The notes under the pieces were generated by a model that had not been told where the DNA came from, ran no database searches, and saw nothing but the letters and a program-made list of their open reading frames with translations. Positions 297 through 26,562 of a stretch of DNA of 29,305 bases are shown here, in pieces. Source of the stretch: a virus; the IMG/VR virus record IMGVR_UViG_3300032282_004141, positions 1 to 29,305 of that record; one strand, 5' to 3'. Made by a program: the position numbers and the translations under genes. How positions within the stretch are numbered: the first letter of the stretch is position 1; each line of letters begins with the position of its first letter.

Positions 297-941
297 CTAA
301 GTCTGTTTGTGCTTGCCGCGTAGCGACTGCCCGAGCACGCGGCCCCGGTAGTGCTGCAACTCGGCCTGCTTGTTGATCCCACTCACGCTGACGCTGTGCT
401 TCTTTGCGATCTGGTCCAACGTCAGCTTGTTGCCCTTCAAGTCCTTCAAGATGGCGCGTTTCAACGCAGCCGTAAATTTCACCTTCGGTCCGAACACGAC
501 GCCTTGCGCCTTGCGCTCGGCCATGCCGGCCTTGGTCCGCGCCGCGATCATGGACCGCTCGAACTGAGCGACGAGCGCCAGCATTCCAAGGATTAGCGGC
601 CCAATCAGCCGGTTCGACGTGTCCACGCCGTCAAGCGTGCGGATGAACGCGCCTTCTTGCTCAAACTCGTGCGCAATGTTCAGCACGTCTTTTGCCGATC
701 TCCCGAGCCGGTCCAACTTCCAGACGACCAACGTCCAGCCGGGCCGGCACGACATTTTGATTGCGCGCTCGCGAACAGGAAGCCTTCGAGCCGCGCCGCT
801 TACTTTCTCCACAAGAATGTTCTCAGGCTTCACGCCGGCACGGATCAGCGCCGACCGCTGAAGGTCAACTTCCTGATCCTGCGTGCTGACGCGGCAATAG
901 CCGATCATCTCGCCGTTCGGTTCATTCTCGAATGCTGCCAT
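297..941 (-). CDS. Small serine recombinase (resolvase/invertase family)
   Basis: This protein belongs to the resolvase/invertase serine recombinases, which cut both strands of two short crossover sites through a serine-DNA linkage. With the ATG at 941 (214 aa), the motif GYCRVSTQDQ places the catalytic serine at residue 19 with Arg17 beside it. KLDRLGRS (about 75-82) supplies the conserved Asp-Arg and the second arginine. A long helix (ERSMIAARTKAGMAERKAQG) leads to a C-terminal helix-turn-helix around LTLDQIAKKHSVSVSG. The length is normal for resolvases and invertases and far below the large serine integrases. An ATG at 908 is an alternative start, but it lacks a well-spaced ribosome binding site. 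Whether it inverts, resolves or integrates DNA cannot be read from this window; no duplicated fibre cassette is visible. Confidence 0.93.
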   Translation of the reverse strand: MAAFENEPNGEMIGYCRVSTQDQEVDLQRSALIRAGVKPENILVEKVSGAARRLPVRERAIKMSCRPGWTLVVWKLDRLGRSAKDVLNIAHEFEQEGAFIRTLDGVDTSNRLIGPLILGMLALVAQFERSMIAARTKAGMAERKAQGVVFGPKVKFTAALKRAILKDLKGNKLTLDQIAKKHSVSVSGINKQAELQHYRGRVLGQSLRGKHKQT

Positions 942-983
942 TGCGTTCCATGTCACATCCAAGACAAACACTATGCACGAACC

Positions 984-1013
984 ATTAGTGATTGACTTGG
1001 GGCGAAATGTCAA
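984..1013 (-). promoter_or_regulatory. Candidate promoter for the recombinase
   Basis: Read on the minus strand there is TTGACA (1013-1008), an 18-base spacer, then ACTAAT (989-984), about 43 bases before the recombinase ATG at 941. It faces and overlaps the promoter of the plus-strand block. The two -35 boxes form the arms of a dyad (TTGAC...GTCAA, 992-1013), so one bound protein could control both directions. Confidence 0.5.
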
Positions 1014-6307: not shown

Positions 6308-9300
6308 TCAGGCGTCCGTGCTGGCGTCGGTGGTGATGTAGACGGTGACGCCATGCAGGCGGGCGTCAATCGCCATGGTGTCAGAGCCGTCGGATGGAAC
6401 GCGCTTGACTTGGAACACCACCCAATCCTCGGCGGCAGGCGTGCCCGCTATGGTGATGGCCGCGGTGGCGCTTGTCACGTAGATCGTGTTGGTTGTGCCG
6501 CCCGTGTCGGCCACCTGCTGAGCCGTGCCAAACGCGGTGTCACCAGCATCGCCGTCCGACAGCGCCACTGCTTCCAGCGCCCACACCACGCCGAAGTTGG
6601 TAGTCGTGGCAGCATGGCTCCATGTGAACGCTGCCGTGATTGTTCCCTCGTTCCACGACTTAGGCATGCGGATTGAGAACTGAGCGAACTCCTGGGTTGT
6701 GGTGTCGTAGTCGAGCGTTTTGAGCATCACCTTGTTGGTGGTGGTCTCCGCGCTTCCGGCGGCCGCACCATTCGTGGTGCGAGACACCATGGCGCCAGCT
6801 GGCACATAGATTGTCTCCTTGCCCACCTTCTTGACGACGACACCCTCAACCGCCAGTTCACCGGCGGCCGAGCGAGATAGCGTGGTGTCTGTGGCGTGGC
6901 CAAGCTCAATGCTACCGAAGCCCACTGCCTGCGATGTGGATGCCACAAGACCAGCAGCAGGCAACCCCGTGCAGTTGGTCAGCGTGCCGCTGCTTGGCGT
7001 GCCGAGCGCGCCGCTCGGAGCCACGTAGTCGGTTCCGGCCGTTGCCGCCGACGCCACACCGCTGGTCGCCTTCACGATGCCCGTGAGGCTTGCGCGCTTG
7101 ATCAGCTTTCCTGTCGTCGAGTTGAATAGCGCCAACTCGCTGTCAACCGACGATGCCGGGCCGACAACATCGCCAGTTCCGACACCATCAGCGCCCTTGT
7201 CGCCAGCGCGCAAGAACACGACAGAAACGATGGTGTTGTTGGCAATCGTGCCCGCGCCGCCGATGTAGGACACGGGGAACGTGTCGTATGAGCCGGCATC
7301 AGTCAGGGTGCTCGTGATCTGGTATTCTAGGAAATTGGTCCCAGGTGCCGCCACGTCGAGAATACGAACCACGCCCTTGTTTGTTGAGGTCGTGCTGTCG
7401 TCCCATGTGGCGATGTACGCGGCCTGACTGGCGCTCTGGCGGTTGGTCTCGCTGATGTTGAGTTGGGTTGCGCTTGCCGGAGTAGCGTTGTTGACCAGCA
7501 GCTTGCCGGAGCCTGGGTCGCCGCTCGTGCTCGTGCTCCACTGGTAGTCCAGCCCAACGTTCGGGCCAGTTGCTCCCGTTGCGCCGGTTGAGCCCGCCGA
7601 GCCAGTGGCGCCCGTTGAGCCTGTCGGGCCAACGTCGCCAGCTATCCCGATATTCCAAGACGTATAGGTGCCAGACCCAACTGACCTGTCTGACGTGAAC
7701 GCCAGCGTGGAACCGCTATAGCTGGTGACAACGCCTTCCATGTAGTTTGACGCGTCATAAGCTGCACGCACACGCATGTTGGCAGCGTAGGCCAGGCCGG
7801 ATTGAGTGGTGAACGTCTTGCTACCGCTCGAGCCGAGCGCAACTGAGCTTGTCGAGGTCGCAGCGTAGCCAGGGCCAGCCGCGCCAGTCGTGCCCGTGGT
7901 GCCTTGTGGCCCCTGGGTCGTCGTCATGTCCTCGATGGTGACGCTGGCGTAACGCTCAACGCCGTTGTTGGCGACGGTCGGGACTCCGAGATCTTGAGTT
8001 GAGAACGTGCCGCTCGCGTAATAGTCGAGCGTGAAGATCTCTTGAGCCGACAGCGTGAGAACGCCTGCCAGATGCGCCGTGGCCGTCGTTCGGTCTGGCG
8101 TGGCGTTCGGAGCTGCAACGCATAGGCCATCGATCACGGTTGCCGTGGTCGTGCTCTTGAACCGGATCTGAAACGTGTTTGTGCCCATGGTCACGGCCCA
8201 GGCACGGACAAGGTACGTGCCGGCCGGTATGGTGACTTGGTTGGATGCGAGCGACAGTCCGCTGATGACGTTGGTCGCGCCAGAGTTCACGAACGTGTTC
8301 AGTACGTGGTTGGTAAACGAGCCTGTCGTTGCTGTGCCGCCGTCCGTGCCGTTAGATTTCTGATCCTCGATAATCGCGATCTTGCGCACGGTCGAGGCTG
8401 GCGCCGTCGCGTTGGCCAGATCAACCCAGCCTGAGCTTTGATATGATGTGTAAAGATCCTCGTCTTGGACGTAGGCCAGCCACCCACAGTCAGCGGCTGG
8501 TGTGTGCTTGATGTAGGTGCCCCGCCCGTCGTACTCGGCAATATCGTTGGTTGAGTACCCGGCAGCGGCCGCCGTGCCTGTCGGTGTGCCGTTGAACAGG
8601 TATCGAGCGCCAGAGACAGGCGACGACGGAAACGCCGTAACGCGATCAGCCACGGTAAAAACGGACAGCCGCGACCCGATCAGCGGGTGGGTTTCTTCAG
8701 CGACCACAAACCCAGCACCGTCACAGACGATGCGGACGAGGTGCCCCTTGCCGGTCAGAGCTATGCCAGCCGTCGTGCTACTGCCCGGCAGCTTGATATA
8801 CTGCCCGGAGCCCGTGGCGATCTTGACTTGGTTCGCCGTGCCGTCATGCCGGAACAGCGCACTCCAGCCGTTACCTAGCGTCACCGCGCTCGTGAGCGTG
8901 CACTGGAAAGAGCCGCCAGTCGGGTCGCACTGGAATAGATAGCCGTCGTCACCAGAGACAGCCGTGAAGTCGGCTGTCTTGGGGTGCACCTCAACAGCCG
9001 CAGCGCCGGCGCCGGAGCTTGTGGTGATGTTGACCGGCCGGAAGTTTTCATGTGTAACAATAGAAGACCCGGCGGCATCCTTGAGGATGATCTTGAGCGC
9101 CGTGGTGGTGGTATAGATCGAGCACTTGTTGCCGCCGGAGGTGGGATATCCGCCCGCATCGGTGGTGACTGACGTTCCCACGGAAGTCGCCAGCGCCGAA
9201 TCCGAATAGACGGTTTTCGGCGTGCTGGTTCCTGCGGTGTAGAACTCAATTGTTCCGCCGGAAATCGGATCGTCGTTCGCATCCGTCAGGCGCCAGCCGG

Positions 9301-9328
9301 GAGGGAATACGGTCACGGAGTCGGTCAT
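6308..9328 (-). CDS. Tail fibre protein with collagen-like segments (1006 aa)
   Basis: Residues ~8-100 form a fibre N-terminal domain beginning PPGWRLTDANDDPISGG and containing DAGGYPTSGG, a block common in tail fibres that attach to a baseplate or tail hub. After several beta-rich domains come collagen-like Gly-X-Y runs at ~470-484 (QGPQGTTGTTGAAGPG) and ~562-588 (GPTGSTGATGSAGSTG). They bracket a compact beta domain (LAYAANMRVRAAYD ... TSWNIGIAG). The last 300 residues are beta-rich and probably carry the receptor-binding tip. ATG 9328 was preferred to the upstream TTG. P22 has an endorhamnosidase tailspike here; no glycosidase motif is visible. Confidence 0.85.
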   Translation of the reverse strand: MTDSVTVFPPGWRLTDANDDPISGGTIEFYTAGTSTPKTVYSDSALATSVGTSVTTDAGGYPTSGGNKCSIYTTTTALKIILKDAAGSSIVTHENFRPVNITTSSGAGAAAVEVHPKTADFTAVSGDDGYLFQCDPTGGSFQCTLTSAVTLGNGWSALFRHDGTANQVKIATGSGQYIKLPGSSTTAGIALTGKGHLVRIVCDGAGFVVAEETHPLIGSRLSVFTVADRVTAFPSSPVSGARYLFNGTPTGTAAAAGYSTNDIAEYDGRGTYIKHTPAADCGWLAYVQDEDLYTSYQSSGWVDLANATAPASTVRKIAIIEDQKSNGTDGGTATTGSFTNHVLNTFVNSGATNVISGLSLASNQVTIPAGTYLVRAWAVTMGTNTFQIRFKSTTTATVIDGLCVAAPNATPDRTTATAHLAGVLTLSAQEIFTLDYYASGTFSTQDLGVPTVANNGVERYASVTIEDMTTTQGPQGTTGTTGAAGPGYAATSTSSVALGSSGSKTFTTQSGLAYAANMRVRAAYDASNYMEGVVTSYSGSTLAFTSDRSVGSGTYTSWNIGIAGDVGPTGSTGATGSAGSTGATGATGPNVGLDYQWSTSTSGDPGSGKLLVNNATPASATQLNISETNRQSASQAAYIATWDDSTTSTNKGVVRILDVAAPGTNFLEYQITSTLTDAGSYDTFPVSYIGGAGTIANNTIVSVVFLRAGDKGADGVGTGDVVGPASSVDSELALFNSTTGKLIKRASLTGIVKATSGVASAATAGTDYVAPSGALGTPSSGTLTNCTGLPAAGLVASTSQAVGFGSIELGHATDTTLSRSAAGELAVEGVVVKKVGKETIYVPAGAMVSRTTNGAAAGSAETTTNKVMLKTLDYDTTTQEFAQFSIRMPKSWNEGTITAAFTWSHAATTTNFGVVWALEAVALSDGDAGDTAFGTAQQVADTGGTTNTIYVTSATAAITIAGTPAAEDWVVFQVKRVPSDGSDTMAIDARLHGVTVYITTDASTDA

Positions 9329-9329
9329 G

Positions 9330-9416
9330 CTAGGATAGTCCTCGGGTGAGAACGCGCAGAGCACTGGCGCTGGCAACTATCATCACGCTTGCCGTCGCCT
9401 TGAAGATTGCAGCCAT
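9330..9416 (-). CDS. Possible 28-aa hydrophobic peptide before the fibre gene
   Basis: ATG 9416 opens a short frame with a hydrophobic core (AAIFKATASVMIVASASAL) that ends one base before the fibre ATG. In another frame, 9325-9429, a 34-aa ORF fits the TAATG and ATGA overlaps usual for this genome but encodes a polar, unlikely protein. One of the two may be translated, or the 100 bases may simply be spacer. Confidence 0.3.
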   Translation of the reverse strand: MAAIFKATASVMIVASASALRVLTRGLS

Positions 9417-16815: not shown

Positions 16816-17035
16816 CCGGCTCAACTTCTTTCTTCGGTGGTTCGGTGGCCGCGTCTAGTGCCGCGGTGCTTGGGCTGTCGTGCCAGCCTTCGGGGAGCGC
16901 TTCGCCTGGGTTCAAGTAGAACACCTGCGAGCGCCCGTCCGAGTGATAGCCGAACGTGGGAACCTTGCCCTCGTTCGGGTCGGTAGCAGATGGCTCTGTA
17001 GCCATCTGCGTCCCGTTGAGTAGCTGATTAGCCAT
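16802..17035 (-). CDS. Small virion-region protein (77 aa)
   Basis: The start overlaps the coat stop as TGATG. The core VFYLNPGEALPEGWHDSP is a motif seen in small proteins beside phage head genes. Flanking segments are acidic and disordered-looking. Suggested role: head decoration or head-tail joining, from context only. Confidence 0.6.
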   Translation of the reverse strand: MANQLLNGTQMATEPSATDPNEGKVPTFGYHSDGRSQVFYLNPGEALPEGWHDSPSTAALDAATEPPKKEVEPDGNG

Positions 17036-18258
17036 CAGCCGGTGAGCCGAACCGCAAGCTCAGGATAGATCGTCTTGACACCATAGAGGATGTCGAGACG
17101 GATTATGTCGCGGTCGAGGTCGATGTCGTACTGCTTGACCACGCGAACCGAGAGGTTGTTGTAGCTCTCGCGGGCCTTGAACGCGGCGCCGTCCGGCAAG
17201 TCGAGGTCCGCCATCACCAGAGCAAACGCGTTTTTATGGAACACGAGGTTTTGGGGATAGGCGGTCGAGGCCGTGCCAGTGAGCACGGTGATTGCAGCGT
17301 TGTCAGCAATCGCGGCCGACACATTCTGGTACGGGCCGCTGGTGATGGCAGGCGGCGAGATGGTCAGCGTGGCGTTGCCGGAGCCATCCGAGGATGCGTC
17401 CGCCGTGACCACGAACTGCTTGAGGAACGTATAGGCGGACTTCGTTTTGTCGTTGACCGCGTAGACGTTGGCGATGGTGATGACATCGCCGGCCTTCAGG
17501 CGGGACGCGGCCGAGGCCGTCCAGCCGTCCGTGACCAGAGACATCGTGTTGGCCTGCGGCGTCGAGTTGCTGTTCTGCGAGGCGCCGTTGACGAGTGGCG
17601 TGCCGCCGAGCGGGCCAACCGTGTGGTTGGGCACAGACTGCGCTTCGTAAGTGTCGATGCCGGCGTACCTGCCGATGCGCACCTTTTCCATCGCAGTCAA
17701 TTGCTTCCCAGGCTGATACTGGAGCTTCATGTCGTTGGCGACCTGAAGGGCAGCAGCCGGGCTCAGCACGCCGTTGATCTGCTCGCCCATGGGGAACGAG
17801 TTTTCAACAAGGCGCTGTCGAGCAGCACCAAGGTGGAGGAACGTGCTCGGCGTAGTGCCGGCCGTGCCCACCCAATTCGGCACCGTCGTATAGAGGCCCA
17901 TCAGCGAGGTCTCGACATCCTGCGACAGCGCGATCATCGCCGGCTTGATGTAGCGTTCGCTGTAGTTCTCAATGGTAAGGGTGAGGTCCGATGATACGAA
18001 ATCCCACGACACGTGCTTTTGCGTGTCGATGGCCAGCGGCACCGTGCCCTCGATCACGTCCGACGATACGCGGCTGGCGCCGGTCGAGGACTTGAACTTG
18101 ACGGGCTTTCGGATCGAGATGGTGGAGCCAACCTTGACGAACTCCTTGGAGTAGTCGCGGTGCACCAACTCGCCCATGACGAGATTGTTCTGAAGCTGCA
18201 TCAGCGCCTCTTTGGCGATGATGGTCGGCGTAATCAGGGTATTTGAAGAAGCTACCAT
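17035..18258 (-). CDS. Major capsid protein, P22 gp5 coat-like (407 aa)
   Basis: The size and block structure fit the P22 coat family of HK97-fold proteins. Visible features are an N-terminal helix (SNTLITPTIIAKEALMQLQN), a long extended loop region (RKPVKFKSSTG), the segment DLTLTIENYSERYIKPAMIA, a beta-rich central insertion (~225-320, where P22 has its I-domain), and a C-terminal strand (VVKQYDIDLDRDIIRLDILY). It follows the scaffold gene, as in P22. The N- and C-terminal blocks recur in the small genes at 21249-21868. Confidence 0.88.
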   Translation of the reverse strand: MVASSNTLITPTIIAKEALMQLQNNLVMGELVHRDYSKEFVKVGSTISIRKPVKFKSSTGASRVSSDVIEGTVPLAIDTQKHVSWDFVSSDLTLTIENYSERYIKPAMIALSQDVETSLMGLYTTVPNWVGTAGTTPSTFLHLGAARQRLVENSFPMGEQINGVLSPAAALQVANDMKLQYQPGKQLTAMEKVRIGRYAGIDTYEAQSVPNHTVGPLGGTPLVNGASQNSNSTPQANTMSLVTDGWTASAASRLKAGDVITIANVYAVNDKTKSAYTFLKQFVVTADASSDGSGNATLTISPPAITSGPYQNVSAAIADNAAITVLTGTASTAYPQNLVFHKNAFALVMADLDLPDGAAFKARESYNNLSVRVVKQYDIDLDRDIIRLDILYGVKTIYPELAVRLTG

Positions 18259-18294: not shown

Positions 18295-19098
18295 TCACGA
18301 TTGGGCTTGGCGGGCCTTGATGTAATCGGCCATGGAAAGCGAAGACAAATCCACACCCGGATTACCCGCCCCACCCGAGACCGTTTGAACCGGCGCTGGT
18401 GCTTGGCTGATCCGTTTGACGGGCTGGGCCGCAACTCTGGCTTCGATGCGGGCGATCTCTGCACCCTGGTAGGCGGGGTGAAGCCTGGCGATGCGGTAGG
18501 CCTCGTTCGGGTTGCGGCCGAGGTAGTTCGCAATCTCCACCGATCGATCACTTTCAGCGATCAGGTCTGCGGCAATGTCGGACACTGGAAGTCGAGCAAA
18601 CGTAGCCAGCGTGGTGTCGATGTCTGGGAGGCGCTCTCGAGCTGCGTCCACCTTGGCCATGAATGTCGCTTGGCGGGTTTCCGCCAGGCGATGCTCGACC
18701 TGGGTAGCCTGCTGTTGAGCGAGACCATGCTGCACTCCAATCACGGCCTGCTGTGTGCGGGCCATTTCGGAGGCGTTCAGGTCATTCGGATCGACTTGCT
18801 GGGTTGCCTGATACTGCTGCCGAAGCGCGGCCGTCTGCTGCTGGAGCATTTCAAGCTCCCGCTTTTCAGCATGCTTCCGCGCTGTCAGTTCAGAAATCTG
18901 GCGCTCGATACGCTCTTTACTTGCGGTAAACCGCCCTTTTTCGTCGCGCGGTTTGTCCGGGTTTTCGGTGTCCGTTTCCGCCCCTGTCTCTTGTGCGGCC
19001 GGGGCTGGCGCCGGGGGATCAACCTGAGCAACGGCTGCAGGCTGCTGTTCTACTGGTATGGCGGCCGCCGCTGGAGCGTCCGGGGCAAAGATACTCAT
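18295..19098 (-). CDS. Scaffolding protein (267 aa)
   Basis: Between portal and coat, this protein has a Pro/Ala-rich acidic N-terminus, then a long Gln/Glu/Arg-rich coiled coil (residues ~58-145, e.g. RELEMLQQQTAALRQQYQAT) and a helical C-terminus with NYLGRNPNEAYRIA. No catalytic motif is visible. The length is close to P22 gp8 (303 aa), which guides coat assembly and then exits the procapsid. The coat-binding end is expected at the C-terminus (KARQAQS here), less basic than in P22. Confidence 0.78.
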   Translation of the reverse strand: MSIFAPDAPAAAAIPVEQQPAAVAQVDPPAPAPAAQETGAETDTENPDKPRDEKGRFTASKERIERQISELTARKHAEKRELEMLQQQTAALRQQYQATQQVDPNDLNASEMARTQQAVIGVQHGLAQQQATQVEHRLAETRQATFMAKVDAARERLPDIDTTLATFARLPVSDIAADLIAESDRSVEIANYLGRNPNEAYRIARLHPAYQGAEIARIEARVAAQPVKRISQAPAPVQTVSGGAGNPGVDLSSLSMADYIKARQAQS

Positions 19099-19143: not shown

Positions 19144-21249
19144 CTAGTACGGCGGGGGTTGTGCACCACCCGGAAACTGTCCGTTGTCCATGTCGCCATC
19201 TGGCGGGCCGCCCATCTGGTCAGCATCCGGCTCAGGCATCATGCCCGGCGGCGGACCTGGTGGCATCGGCCCTTGCATCGGCGGCTCTTGCGGAATGTCA
19301 GGCGGCAACGGCGGCGGCATGGGCGGGGAAATCGCCCCGTACATGGCAAGGCTTTCGAGACCGATCTTGTCGGCGTCGGCCATGGTTTTGCGCGCTGATG
19401 CGTATTTGTTGGCCAACTCAGCCCGCGCCATCGGGTCGTCAAACGGGTTTGGCGGCGGCTGGTTCGGATCGCGCAGGGCTTGGGCTGGCACGAGGTTGCG
19501 AAGGCGCTTGGAGGCTTCAGCAGAATCCGGCCAATCAGCGTTCTTGACGATGAGGTCGGCCAGCACGGGCGCTGTATCCGGGCCAAGCGTCTGCATCAAC
19601 TGCATCATGGCGTCCATCGCCTCAAGGCGGCGTGTCGCGTAATTCGGGCCGGTCACAACGCGGATGTCGTAGCGACCAACAGAGAGGTCGTTGACCATCA
19701 CCGGCACGCCGTCCTCGGCATAAAGCACGTGGTTGATGGGTGCGAACTGCTCGGCACCGTCCTCGCTTTGCAGGCGAACAACGCGCTCGTTATCGTAGAT
19801 CTTCGGTATCAGGTCGATCAGCACGCGGCCTGTCTGTTCGAGCGAGCGCGTGAGGTTGTCCATGTAGTGAAAGTTGGCAACGTCGCCCTCACGCTGGCGG
19901 GCCATGATGGCCTTGCCGGAGGTCTCATTGCTCTTGGCGCCAAGCGAGGCCTCATGGATACCGGACACGTCTTTGAGGTCTTGCTGGGCTACCTGCTGTT
20001 CCTGCCACAACGCAGACGGCGGTTCCGGGGCGCTGATGCGCTCAGGCTTCTCACCATTCGGGCCTGGCTTGTACCGCAGATACGGCTTGTTGCGCGTGTT
20101 CGCGGTGTCCCAGTCCGTTTTGTGCTGGGCAATCATGTCTGTCGTAACAAGCCACGGCGACTTAGGCGACAGCGCGATGTGCTCGGCAGCGGCCGAACGA
20201 TAGAAGTTGTACAATTGTTGCGGATCGCGCATGTGCCGGACAAGGCCATGGCGGATCGTCAGCCGGTCAAGCGGCACCTCATCACCAATCACGGGGATGA
20301 TCGGCAGATGCTTGCCGGGCCATTTGTTCGGGCCTGCCAGCACCTCGGCACCAGTCACCAGCGATTGGCGGACTTCATAGCCCTTGGCCTGCCGCTGCCG
20401 GACAATCTGGCCGTGGGTCATCTGAAGCTGCGCGAGCTTCTGGAAGTCCATGCCGGTGATGTCGTAGCTCTCGCCGTTCTGGAAGCCTGCGATCAGCTTA
20501 TCGACGGGGTGCTTGCACCAGTACTCGGCCACAAGGATATAGTCGTTCGTGGTCCAGAACAGGCCGCTCGTGAAATTGTTCGCACGCTGCTCATTGACAG
20601 AGACCTGAAGCGCGCCGGGATATTTCTCCTTGAACGTGGAGCGCGGCACGAGATCGATGACGATGCACCACATGGCATCGGATCGATCTGGCTTCACGGC
20701 CGCCGGGTCCCAATACACCGCGAGCGGGTACGGGATCAACTCAATTGCCACCTCCTGGTCGAAGCTATCGTCGTCCTGGTAGCGGGTGATGACGCGGAAA
20801 TGGCCGATGCCGCACGCCGCAGCATGATAGGCCGCAGTCGCGTAGACGTGGCGAGCGCTGGACCGATACTGCACATCGGAGATCACGCCGTTATAGATGT
20901 CGGCAAGCTGCGGGTCCTGCTTGCCGCCTACAGGCGTGACTTTGAGCACCGGGGAATTTTGGCGGATGTCGTTGGTGACTTGGTGCAAGAACTGCGGAAG
21001 CTTGTTGATCGTCAGCATGGGCCGATTGACCCGCTGCGCTCGCGCGTACTCCGGCCATTGGTCACCGGCCAGGAACTTCATGTCTATAACCGCGTCCTCG
21101 CGGTTCACCCGGTCGAATTGGAACGCCTCCGACAGCTTGGTTTGCACCTCGCGCACAAGGTCGCGCGGCTGCTCCTGCGGCTTGTCGTACGAGCCGGCAA
21201 TTCTATCTTCCGGGGTGCGCTCAATGCCTTGAGGCGCGGCGATGTGCAT
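19144..21249 (-). CDS. Portal protein, P22 gp1-like (701 aa)
   Basis: The portal is the dodecameric ring through which DNA is packaged and released. The length is near P22 gp1 (725 aa). Blocks typical of P22-type portals are FLAGDQWPEYARAQR, RPMLTINKLPQFLHQVTND, FRVITRYQDDDSFDQE, and SLGAKSNETSGKAIMARQRE at about 440-460. The C-terminus is Pro/Gly/Met-rich and disordered-looking. It is coupled to the upstream small gene by a TAATG overlap. Confidence 0.9.
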   Translation of the reverse strand: MHIAAPQGIERTPEDRIAGSYDKPQEQPRDLVREVQTKLSEAFQFDRVNREDAVIDMKFLAGDQWPEYARAQRVNRPMLTINKLPQFLHQVTNDIRQNSPVLKVTPVGGKQDPQLADIYNGVISDVQYRSSARHVYATAAYHAAACGIGHFRVITRYQDDDSFDQEVAIELIPYPLAVYWDPAAVKPDRSDAMWCIVIDLVPRSTFKEKYPGALQVSVNEQRANNFTSGLFWTTNDYILVAEYWCKHPVDKLIAGFQNGESYDITGMDFQKLAQLQMTHGQIVRQRQAKGYEVRQSLVTGAEVLAGPNKWPGKHLPIIPVIGDEVPLDRLTIRHGLVRHMRDPQQLYNFYRSAAAEHIALSPKSPWLVTTDMIAQHKTDWDTANTRNKPYLRYKPGPNGEKPERISAPEPPSALWQEQQVAQQDLKDVSGIHEASLGAKSNETSGKAIMARQREGDVANFHYMDNLTRSLEQTGRVLIDLIPKIYDNERVVRLQSEDGAEQFAPINHVLYAEDGVPVMVNDLSVGRYDIRVVTGPNYATRRLEAMDAMMQLMQTLGPDTAPVLADLIVKNADWPDSAEASKRLRNLVPAQALRDPNQPPPNPFDDPMARAELANKYASARKTMADADKIGLESLAMYGAISPPMPPPLPPDIPQEPPMQGPMPPGPPPGMMPEPDADQMGGPPDGDMDNGQFPGGAQPPPY

Positions 21250-21455
21250 TATGGGTGTTTCACCGCGTAGACCAGGGTCACTCGGATCGTCTCGCTATCT
21301 GCGTTGATGTCGTAGGAACGAACGGCCGAGGCCTGGATAGTCTTTGGATCTGCCAGCAAGTCGGCGGCGTTGCGCTTGACCAACTCGACAATCTTGCCTG
21401 CCGTCTTGATGTCGTCCTGTCCCGCGTGGTCGTCTACGCCTTGCATGCGTGGCAT
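21249..21455 (-). CDS. Coat C-terminus-like small protein (68 aa)
   Basis: The last 25 residues (SAVRSYDINADSETIRVTLV) align with the coat C-terminal strand (RVVKQYDIDLDRDIIRLDIL) and with the end of the neighbouring 137-aa protein. The first half is different: HAGQDDIKTAGKIVELVKRN looks helical. The TGATG and TAATG overlaps with its two neighbours support expression in the head operon. I infer a miniature coat-related protein, perhaps a minor head or assembly factor. Confidence 0.7.
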   Translation of the reverse strand: MPRMQGVDDHAGQDDIKTAGKIVELVKRNAADLLADPKTIQASAVRSYDINADSETIRVTLVYAVKHP

Positions 21456-21868
21456 CAGGCATACCCCACATCGATACGGATCTCGTCAGTGTCGTCCTTG
21501 ACGTTGTAGGTCTTGAGCACACGGCAGGCGACACCATGAAGGCATTGTTGCGCGCTCATGGAAACGGCGCTTGGCATCTCGAGCCAGCACGTTTGACTGG
21601 CGCCAGCTTCAATCAATTTGGCGGCTATAGCTTTTGCCGCCGGCACAAGGTACTTCTCCTCGTAATCAACAATCTCAAGCGCGAGATCATCCGCTTTGAA
21701 CTGGCAATCAAACGCAATGATGCCACGAGGCTCAGTCTTGAGCGGCATGATGCGCTCTTGTTGATCACGCTCTTTGACTGCGTTCGATTTCATCAGCGGC
21801 AACTCGTCGTTCAACCGCATGAGGAACGCCTTGGCAATGATCGATGCTGTGATCAGAGTGTTACTCAT
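21455..21868 (-). CDS. Miniature coat-like protein (137 aa)
   Basis: ATG 21868 has AAGGA about ten bases upstream. The N-terminus (SNTLITASIIAKAFLMRLND) aligns with the coat N-terminus (SNTLITPTIIAKEALMQLQN). The segment DDLALEIVDYEEKYLVPAAK aligns with coat SDLTLTIENYSERYIKPAMI. The C-terminus (VLKTYNVKDDTDEIRIDVGY) aligns with the coat end. The coat core between these blocks is almost wholly absent. It sits between terminase and portal. It looks like an internally deleted, diverged paralogue of the coat rather than a pseudogene, because the frame is intact and coupled. Confidence 0.75.
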   Translation of the reverse strand: MSNTLITASIIAKAFLMRLNDELPLMKSNAVKERDQQERIMPLKTEPRGIIAFDCQFKADDLALEIVDYEEKYLVPAAKAIAAKLIEAGASQTCWLEMPSAVSMSAQQCLHGVACRVLKTYNVKDDTDEIRIDVGYA

Positions 21869-21923: not shown

Positions 21924-23447
21924 TCAAGCAGCCATCCAGGCGCCATCTTCATTGCTCGAACCGCGATCATAATACGGCTCGTCATCCACCTCGAGCGGGA
22001 AGTTTAGCCCGCCACTGTAGAGGTCGAATATGCGCGCCAGACTGTCCAGCATGTCGTCGTGAAGCCCGACAGGGAACGGCTTGTATTCTTCCTCTATAAA
22101 CGAAGACACGAGGTCGTGGCTGCGGCCCTGGTAGTCGGTGCGGAACATGGAGTGCGGCAGCCACACCTTGCCTTGCTCGAAGTAGGGCATCAGGCGCTTG
22201 ATGCGGTCGTTCTTCGGCATCGGGCCGCCAAGCTCGCGGATCTGAAAGCGGTAGTTGCGGCGCTCCATCTCCGAGTACATGAACTCTACATCGGCCATCA
22301 TGCCGTATTTCTCATATCCCACATCGCCTGGCCTCCACTTGCGATGCAGGGCGAACAAGGCATCAGCGCGCTGTTTGAGGTTCAACCGGTCGCGCAGCAT
22401 ATCGAGCGCGTAGATATTGCCGTCGTTGTTGAAGCCGATGACCCACATCGACGTGTAGTCGCTGGTTTTCTTCTTTTCGCTGGCCGCGTCACAGACGATG
22501 CACACATTCATGCCGGCGCGCGACACATGGTCGAAGTGGCGAAGCCAGGCATCCTTAAACCCTTGCGTCTCGTCAGCCTTGGGGTCCTGCATCATCTGGC
22601 AAGCGAACGTGTATGGCCCCATTTCCCGGCGCTTTTCCTCGAGCCGAGCGCGACTGAGCAGCACGGGCTCACCTTCAATCTTGCCGTCTGCCGTGGCTGG
22701 GTAAACGCGCGGAGTGACGCCGCGATCCATGATGGTGCGGTACGTGTCGTTGAAGTGATAGCGCGTACCGATGTACCTTGAGGCCCCGCCCTCGCTTCCC
22801 AAATTGCGCGACAACTCCCATGCCTCAGTCACCTTGCCGATCATGTCGGGCGTGGTCACGCTTTCGCGGGTCACCGTGTCGTCGTACACCATCAGCTTGT
22901 AGTGCTTTGACGTAGGCTGGCCATCGACGAGGCCCCAGGCTTCGATAGTGCCTTCCTTGGGGTTGCCCTTGCGCTTGACAATAAGGCCCTCATCTTCGGA
23001 CCATTTTGGCGCCTCGCTTTGCGGGTTGGCCCAAAGCACATCGGGAAATAGCTGCTTGAGGAAATCGTTGCTTTCCAGCTCCCGCTTGATCTGCCGCATG
23101 AAGCCTTTGGCGATGGGGCGGGTGTGGCTGAAGATGCCAACCGTAAGCTCGGGATCGTTGAGGATGTCTTGGATCGTGAGGGCGAATGTGATGATCGTGG
23201 ACTTGTAGTGCTCGCGTGCCCAGAGGTCGAGCTTGCCGTTTGGCTCAAATTGCACTTCACGGCAACGCTCGAATATCCAATCTCGATCCGCATCAATTCG
23301 CTTCAATCCTCGCGTCAGCAGAAAGAACAGGTCGGTTTGGCACCATCCCCGCAAGATCGGGGCCGCTTCCTTCGGCGGCAAACGAGCCAAGGAACTCAGC
23401 AACGGCGTGTAGTCCTTTCGCGAACTCGGCAACCGCGGGATCTGCAT
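21924..23447 (-). CDS. Terminase large subunit (507 aa)
   Basis: This is the ATPase-nuclease motor that packages DNA through the portal. The N-terminal ATPase has a divergent Walker A in WAREHYKST (76-84) and a Walker B-like LMVYDD (185-190). The C-terminal nuclease shows CIVCDAASE (aspartate 320) and HDDMLDSLARIFDL near the end. The start is ATG 23447 with AGGTGG about eight bases upstream, which makes it overlap the small terminase by 155 bases; no other Met precedes the Walker A region. Confidence 0.93.
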   Translation of the reverse strand: MQIPRLPSSRKDYTPLLSSLARLPPKEAAPILRGWCQTDLFFLLTRGLKRIDADRDWIFERCREVQFEPNGKLDLWAREHYKSTIITFALTIQDILNDPELTVGIFSHTRPIAKGFMRQIKRELESNDFLKQLFPDVLWANPQSEAPKWSEDEGLIVKRKGNPKEGTIEAWGLVDGQPTSKHYKLMVYDDTVTRESVTTPDMIGKVTEAWELSRNLGSEGGASRYIGTRYHFNDTYRTIMDRGVTPRVYPATADGKIEGEPVLLSRARLEEKRREMGPYTFACQMMQDPKADETQGFKDAWLRHFDHVSRAGMNVCIVCDAASEKKKTSDYTSMWVIGFNNDGNIYALDMLRDRLNLKQRADALFALHRKWRPGDVGYEKYGMMADVEFMYSEMERRNYRFQIRELGGPMPKNDRIKRLMPYFEQGKVWLPHSMFRTDYQGRSHDLVSSFIEEEYKPFPVGLHDDMLDSLARIFDLYSGGLNFPLEVDDEPYYDRGSSNEDGAWMAA

Positions 23448-25854: not shown

Positions 25855-25883
25855 ATATGCCACATTTTAGCAACGTGTGTCAA
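25855..25883 (-). promoter_or_regulatory. Candidate late-operon promoter
   Basis: On the minus strand TTGACA (25883-25878), 17 bases, then GCATAT (25860-25855). The -35 box overlaps the stop codon of the NusG-like gene, and transcription would run into all virion and lysis genes. The -10 box is imperfect, as expected for a regulated promoter. Confidence 0.55.
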
Positions 25884-26320
25884 CCGGGCCTAAGCTGAGC
25901 GTATGCAATTGCCTGTTGATGCGTTTTGCCGAGCATTTCATAGGCGATGATGCAGGTTCGGCCGCGGGTCTCGACCACGCGCACTGCGATGTCGGCCCCG
26001 TGCATGGAGCGGATCGCGGTGTCGCCAGCGGCGAACGGGTTTTCATGCCGGATGATCTGGCGCACCCGGCAGTGAGCGTACAGCTTGGCCACCTCAGAGC
26101 GGGGCACTGTGCCGAGCCTGGCGCGCAGGTGCTTGGCCTCAAGGGGCTTGGCCTCGGCGTAGACGTACCCGGGCGTCAGCGGGGCTCTGGATCGGCCGAA
26201 CGAGCGCTTGGCGAGCTTGGCGCCTGGGAGATAGGCGCGGATACGTGATTGCCGGCATTCCTCGGCGGCCTTGTGCTCCCGCAGCGGGGCCGTGGTGTAG
26301 ATCTGTAGGGTGCTGCTCAT
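25880..26320 (-). CDS. NusG-like transcription (anti)termination factor (146 aa)
   Basis: The N-terminal part follows the NusG core: a first strand LQIYTTAPL, helix EHKAAEECRQSRIRAYLPGA, and the strand TPGYVYAEA. The C-terminal 50 residues read as a KOW-type domain (NPFAAGDTAIRSMHG ... YEMLGKTHQQAIAYAQLRP). The linker is short and the total is smaller than host NusG (about 180 aa), closer to a specialised RfaH-type paralogue. It lies directly upstream of the late promoter, so a role as antiterminator of the ~22-kb late operon is a reasonable inference. GGAG precedes ATG 26320. Confidence 0.75.
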   Translation of the reverse strand: MSSTLQIYTTAPLREHKAAEECRQSRIRAYLPGAKLAKRSFGRSRAPLTPGYVYAEAKPLEAKHLRARLGTVPRSEVAKLYAHCRVRQIIRHENPFAAGDTAIRSMHGADIAVRVVETRGRTCIIAYEMLGKTHQQAIAYAQLRPG

Positions 26321-26346
26321 GTTGTGCTCCGTTGATACGCGGGCAC

Positions 26347-26562
26347 TCAGGAAATCAGGCAGGAGCGTACCCATGACGGATGACGCCTAATGCCGTTGAC
26401 CACGGTTGGGAAATCTTCAGCCACCTTCGCGCATGCTTCACGCTCTGCGGCGATGGCTTCGTCAAATGCGACTTCGGTCAATTCGTGCTCGTGCACGTAA
26501 CCAGTCCTGCGCGCTTCATCTAACGCAGAAATCAACTTTTCAGCCCATTCTTTTGGCGTCAT
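26347..26562 (-). CDS. Small phage protein with EREACAKVAE motif (71 aa)
   Basis: The start overlaps the HNH stop as TGATG. The protein contains TPKEWAEKLISALDEARRTG and AIAAEREACAKVAED, a motif seen in many short phage early proteins of unknown role. The C-terminus is basic (GIRRHPSWVRSC). Confidence 0.65.
   Translation of the reverse strand: MTPKEWAEKLISALDEARRTGYVHEHELTEVAFDEAIAAEREACAKVAEDFPTVVNGIRRHPSWVRSCLIS

Follow-up and report, generated by a model that had tools for sequence, protein, structure and literature searches.

In a clade of P22-like viruses that are known only from environmental DNA, the interval between the terminase gene and the portal gene (here called the slot) always carries a gene for a small protein related to the major coat protein. 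We analyzed one such virus, the 29,305-base IMG/VR virus record referred to below as the window, together with its relatives (loci with L numbers). We conclude that the slot proteins are real mini-proteins related to the peripheral (P) domain of the coat, that they are maintained and stay with the portal, and that they did not arise by recent copying of the resident coat. An earlier note had described them as internally deleted coat relatives kept for a function, and this part of its reading is supported by profile scores, by recurrence in the slots of 10 other lineages, and by purifying selection. The window carries both a long (137-aa; the mini) and a short (68-aa) slot form.

Head genes of the window and the coat segments of the slot proteins

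The head genes of the window are all on the minus strand, in the order terminase, 137-aa ORF, 68-aa ORF, portal, scaffold, and coat:

21924-23447, minus strand: terminase large subunit, 507 aa (PHROG 38, E 2.5e-62)
21455-21868, minus strand: 137-aa mini-coat (BLASTP to the coat; coat profile; PHROG 283 major head protein, E 2.2e-4)
21249-21455, minus strand: 68-aa protein, predicted helix plus coat-like hairpin (BLASTP, E 1e-4; hhalign; short-family profile; AF2)
19144-21249, minus strand: portal protein, 701 aa (Pfam P22_portal, E 2.5e-179)
18295-19098, minus strand: scaffolding protein, 267 aa (PHROG 8865 head scaffolding protein, E 8.5e-27)
17035-18258, minus strand: major coat protein, 407 aa (Pfam P22_CoatProtein, E 5.9e-61)

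In a phmmer search against the PDB, the 407-aa coat matched chains annotated as "Gene 5 protein" (5l35/7sp4; E 5e-18). Both small frames are intact at the coordinates first reported for them, and their reported coupling to the head genes is seen in the overlaps: the mini stop and the start of the 68-aa ORF share TGATG, and the stop of the 68-aa ORF and the portal start share TAATG. The terminase and the mini are separated by a 55-nt gap with no overlap, and GAAGGA lies upstream of the mini ATG.

The three blocks that had been noticed in both the 137-aa protein and the 407-aa coat were recovered by BLASTP as two colinear segments (N-terminal and middle blocks, E 9e-9; C-terminal block, E 7e-7) and by a profile of 12 coats (65.5 bits). 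In a control with 1,000 shuffles of each slot protein, the best shuffle reached 3.8 to 9.2 bits depending on the protein; the coat score of the mini was above all 1,000 of its own shuffles (best, 3.8 bits), as the earlier note had expected of a true coat relative. The same profile gave 53 bits for the L005 mini and 28.5 bits for the 115-aa ORF of L004, and among ORFs of <330 aa that end inside contigs, it matched solely slot ORFs at E <0.2. Profile-profile alignment to the coats, which had also been suggested, was run as hhalign and gave E values of 3.9e-11 for all slot proteins and 6.3e-5 for the short family. At the curated cut-off of PF11651 (i.e., 24), the coat scores 207 bits and neither small protein matches; we therefore file the small proteins as coat relatives and not as members of P22_CoatProtein (PF11651). 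The segments of the mini that align with the coat are as follows:

21788-21868, minus strand: N-arm block (SNTLIT..IIAK..LM.L), mini residues 1-27, aligned to coat residues about 5-30
21614-21757, minus strand: E-loop return strand, P strand, and spine helix, mini residues 38-85 (F..DDLAL.I.DYEEKYL.PA), aligned to coat residues about 67-115
21458-21589, minus strand: P-domain strands with P-loop turn, mini residues 94-137 (LEMP...RVLKTYNVKDDTDEIRIDVGYA), aligned to coat residues about 346-395

Coat residues from about 116 to 345 and most of the E-loop are missing from this alignment, which agrees with the reported loss of the coat's middle. The I-domain corresponds to coat residues 217-330, as judged by a match to a solved I-domain chain (6mpo), and the A-domain is placed by elimination in the missing stretch (i.e., 116-345). 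The N-arm, the spine helix, and the P-domain hairpin of the P22 gp5 coat (PF11651; PHROG 283) thus align in order with the 137-aa protein, but, unlike a gp5-type coat, the slot proteins (137 or 68 aa, compared with 407 aa) lack the A+I region and most of the E-loop, so that the mini falls short of a full HK97-fold subunit. In the HK97 fold, the P-domain consists of the spine helix, along which the N-arm runs, and a three-stranded sheet with the P-loop (PMC5701804). As predicted from these alignments, the 137-aa protein is a P-domain plus N-arm, and the short form is a helix plus the P hairpin.

The only block common to the 68-aa protein and the coat is the C-terminal one (no other block was found by BLASTP), as had been observed previously. 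Taken alone, this protein is marginal (8.5 bits with the 12-coat profile, compared with 9.2 bits for one of its 1,000 shuffles), so that the expected superiority over shuffled sequences was borderline for the single protein and held at the level of the family. The short forms score 3.9 to 16.7 bits with this profile, and the L026 protein (3.9 bits) falls below at least three of its shuffles. When a profile of six short forms was run against 18,855 six-frame ORFs, it ranked itself first and then the coats (E from 2.6e-4), and it also picked up the L004 ORF and the L005 mini. With a profile of nine short forms against 30,664 ORFs, the next approximately 50 matches were all coats, except for the L004 slot ORF. 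The profile evidence for a relationship between the short form and the coat is therefore convincing for the family and weak for the 68-aa protein alone.

The AF2 model of the 68-aa protein (pLDDT 72) contains a helix (residues 10-33) and two strands that form a hairpin (41-49 and 54-62). The model of the mini (pLDDT 45) contains a helix (71-87) and strands at 113-122 and 127-136. The matches obtained in fold searches with these weak models were middling and generic (e.g., POTRA-like; Z up to 5.2), and no coat was listed among them.

Distribution, selection, and exchange of slot genes

Scans with terminase, portal, and coat queries, through which the relatives with slot genes were obtained, yielded 143 distinct loci with the slot covered. 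An ORF with the coat hairpin occupies the slot in 10 of the 10 relatives whose portals are at least 58% identical (their coats are at least 69% identical) and in none of the 133 more distant relatives; portals and coats just outside the clade occur without the slot gene. The slot ORFs are 49 to 150 aa long (mostly 49 to 58 aa, with longer forms of 115 aa in L004 and of up to 150 aa in L005) and mostly overlap the portal start, as seen in the window, L005, L026, L029, and L036. Those of L137, L139, and L199 were recovered by a profile built without them, and each lies directly before the portal. The slot gene stays with the portal and the coat in L026, L028, and L029, where the terminase is of another type; the terminase has thus apparently been replaced as a module. 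In these three loci and in L137, L139, and L199, the upstream gene is terminase-like but not of the window's terminase type. One locus just outside the clade has an unrelated 72-aa slot ORF that overlaps both the terminase and the portal (L006:10500-10718).

A closely related coat was found in no cultured phage, and the slots of the cultured P22-like phages PBR31, BA3, VvAW1, P26218, and PAE2 contain nothing coat-like (in P26218 and BA3, the small ORFs between the terminase and the portal are unrelated). Searches of IMG/VR recovered no close relatives with the window mini and only the query itself with the L005 mini, and a back-translated pattern of the short family gave nothing that was confirmed. 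In tblastn searches of 50,697 phages, the window mini had a single weak match, to a coat (E 2), and the L005 mini had only weak matches to major capsid proteins (E 0.1 to 0.6); tblastn with the short protein of L029 gave nothing credible.

Purifying selection on the short form is strong. Between L036 and L038, the short forms differ by 22 synonymous and 5 nonsynonymous changes (dN/dS 0.04; p 9e-10), the pair L028-L029 has a dN/dS of 0.33 (p 0.008), and a purifying signal was also obtained for L029-L199 (p 0.014) and L029-L139 (p 0.005). For the mini, the synonymous excess between the window and L005 (p 5e-4) comes from one saturated pair. The mini has diverged much faster than the coat: between the window and L005, identity is 34 to 36% for the minis and 93% for the coats. 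With most of the related coats in the comparison, among them the resident one, the mini shares about 32 to 35% identity. FastTree grouped the two minis outside the clade coats (support 0.83), and IQ-TREE gave their position relative to these coats no supported resolution. The proposal that the mini was duplicated from the resident coat is thus not supported, given the nearly equal identity to most coats, the low identity between minis whose coats are nearly alike, and the lack of supported nesting within the clade coats.

The terminase, portal, and coat proteins of L004 and L010 are about 99 to 100% identical, yet the two loci have different slot alleles (coding sequences of 345 bp [115 aa] and 174 bp [58 aa], respectively):

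L004:5888-6235: slot allele of L004
L010:10512-10688: slot allele of L010
L038:8799-8975: the gene of L010, also present in this locus

The segment in which L004 and L010 differ is sharply bounded by the terminase stop on one side and the portal start on the other. The slot is thus filled in every clade member, with exchangeable contents in which the hairpin is kept.

Possible roles of the slot proteins

We tentatively propose, as the most likely role, that the slot proteins are a portal-vertex or assembly-initiation factor, a reading to which we give somewhat less than an even chance. By sequence, the slot between the terminase and the portal encodes stand-alone fragments of the coat P-domain, and its gene is tied to the portal by position and, in the loci compared, by overlapping start and stop codons. 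The A-domain forms the capsomer centers, and because this domain is missing, a slot fragment would form no capsomer ring; the pentamer subunit suggested in the earlier note is spoken against by the same absence. A fragment could use the inter-capsomer and scaffold-binding surfaces of the coat: P-loops make inter-capsomer contacts at the three-fold axes (PMC6449081), the HK97 scaffold binds the P-domain sheet and the spine helix, and scaffold density in P22 and T7 lies near the spine helix and the N-arm (PMC10275583). Expression together with the portal suggests a low, portal-like copy number. The slot protein would be made with the portal, in small amounts, and would act at the portal vertex during head assembly, where it might link the 12-fold portal, with its scaffold, to the five capsomers around it or might seed portal-containing shells. 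The poor AF2 model of the mini, the lack of a coat among the listed fold-search matches, the fast divergence of the mini, and the absence of the gene just outside the clade count against a portal-vertex role, as does the allele swap between L004 and L010, since a structural partner with the same portal and coat would have to tolerate it. It is more doubtful that the P-domain of an HK97 coat has become an independent conserved protein that is made with the portal and is built into, or acts at, the portal vertex.

The same swap between loci that otherwise have nearly identical head proteins is what would be expected of conflict genes, as is the fast divergence of the mini (36% identity, while the coats are 93% identical). 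The fragments might accordingly be accessory coat mimics that poison the capsids of competing phages or satellites or that serve as decoys for coat-sensing host defenses. We consider such mimicry improbable, because accessory genes usually come and go, while this gene is present in every clade member examined (10 of 10) at a fixed position overlapping the portal start, and because the C-terminal block is kept while the remainder varies. As a capsid-size or pentamer determinant, a slot protein would be a minor subunit of the shell, in the manner of T4 gp24, the coat paralogue of which the eleven pentamers are made (PMC9958956). This option is very unlikely: gp24 keeps the whole fold, while the slot proteins are without the domain that forms capsomer centers, and the slot genes adjoin the portal and not the coat.

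Two further readings concern the origin of the proteins. The short form might be an unrelated helix-hairpin protein (e.g., a gpW-like head-joining factor) that resembles the coat hairpin by chance, with only the 115- to 150-aa forms being derived from the coat. The head-joining protein gpW of phage lambda is about 68 aa long and is encoded between the terminase and the portal, which, together with the shuffle-level scores of single sequences (L026 and the window) and the mere 25 or so residues in common with the coat, would suit this idea. We nevertheless hold it to be quite improbable, somewhat more so than mimicry, because the short-family profile puts coats, over 45 of them, above all other ORFs and because the L004 ORF and both minis, which occupy the same slot, bear the same hairpin plus further coat segments. 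The likeness of the 68-aa protein to gpW is one of size and gene position, and a Pfam search with this protein matched no family. Decaying coat duplicates without function would explain the high divergence, the variable length, and the loss of most of the coat. We regard decay as the least probable of these readings, since the frames are intact in 11 lineages and the slot and its gene overlaps are conserved; for the short form, it is largely refuted by the strong purifying selection, and for the mini itself, the synonymous excess of its one saturated pair points in the same direction.

Comparison with known systems and other features of the window

The nearest known case is T4 gp24, a paralogue of gp23 that probably arose by gene duplication (PMC9958956); like the slot proteins, it is a minor coat paralogue retained beside the major coat, but it has a complete HK97 fold, and the slot proteins lack the capsomer-forming domain. 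In contrast to the gene of a P22-like coat, the slot gene is coupled to the portal and not to the scaffold. The N-terminal scaffold domain of the HK97 major capsid protein is a small helix-turn-strand element that acts on the P-domain and the portal vertex, much as is proposed for the slot proteins; it is, however, fused to the coat and adds a strand to the P-sheet, while the slot proteins resemble the P-sheet itself (PMC10275583). We found no published description of such slot proteins in the open-licence literature. Coat paralogues with the whole fold are already known (e.g., T4 gp24), but we are aware of none, in any phage, that has been reduced to the P-domain, or to its helix and hairpin, and is encoded by a gene of its own linked to the portal.

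The slot proteins suggest that a helper derived from the coat, of a kind not yet described, works at the vertex through which DNA enters the shell. If this reading is true, they would represent a minor coat dissected down to one domain, which would help to reconcile the 12-fold portal with its 5-fold surroundings. Its confirmation would provide a genetic handle on the placement of the 12-fold portal at one vertex of an icosahedral shell, as well as a minimal module for finding which coat surface binds the scaffold and neighboring subunits.

Elsewhere in the window, three other minus-strand genes were noted:

297-1013, minus strand: serine recombinase close to an end of the record (Resolvase domain, E 4e-34)
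6308-9376, minus strand: likely tail-fibre protein of 1022 aa, which contains a short collagen-like Gly-X-Y stretch and weakly matches DUF2793
25880-26374, minus strand: possible phage antitermination factor (weak NusG-like match, E 0.006)
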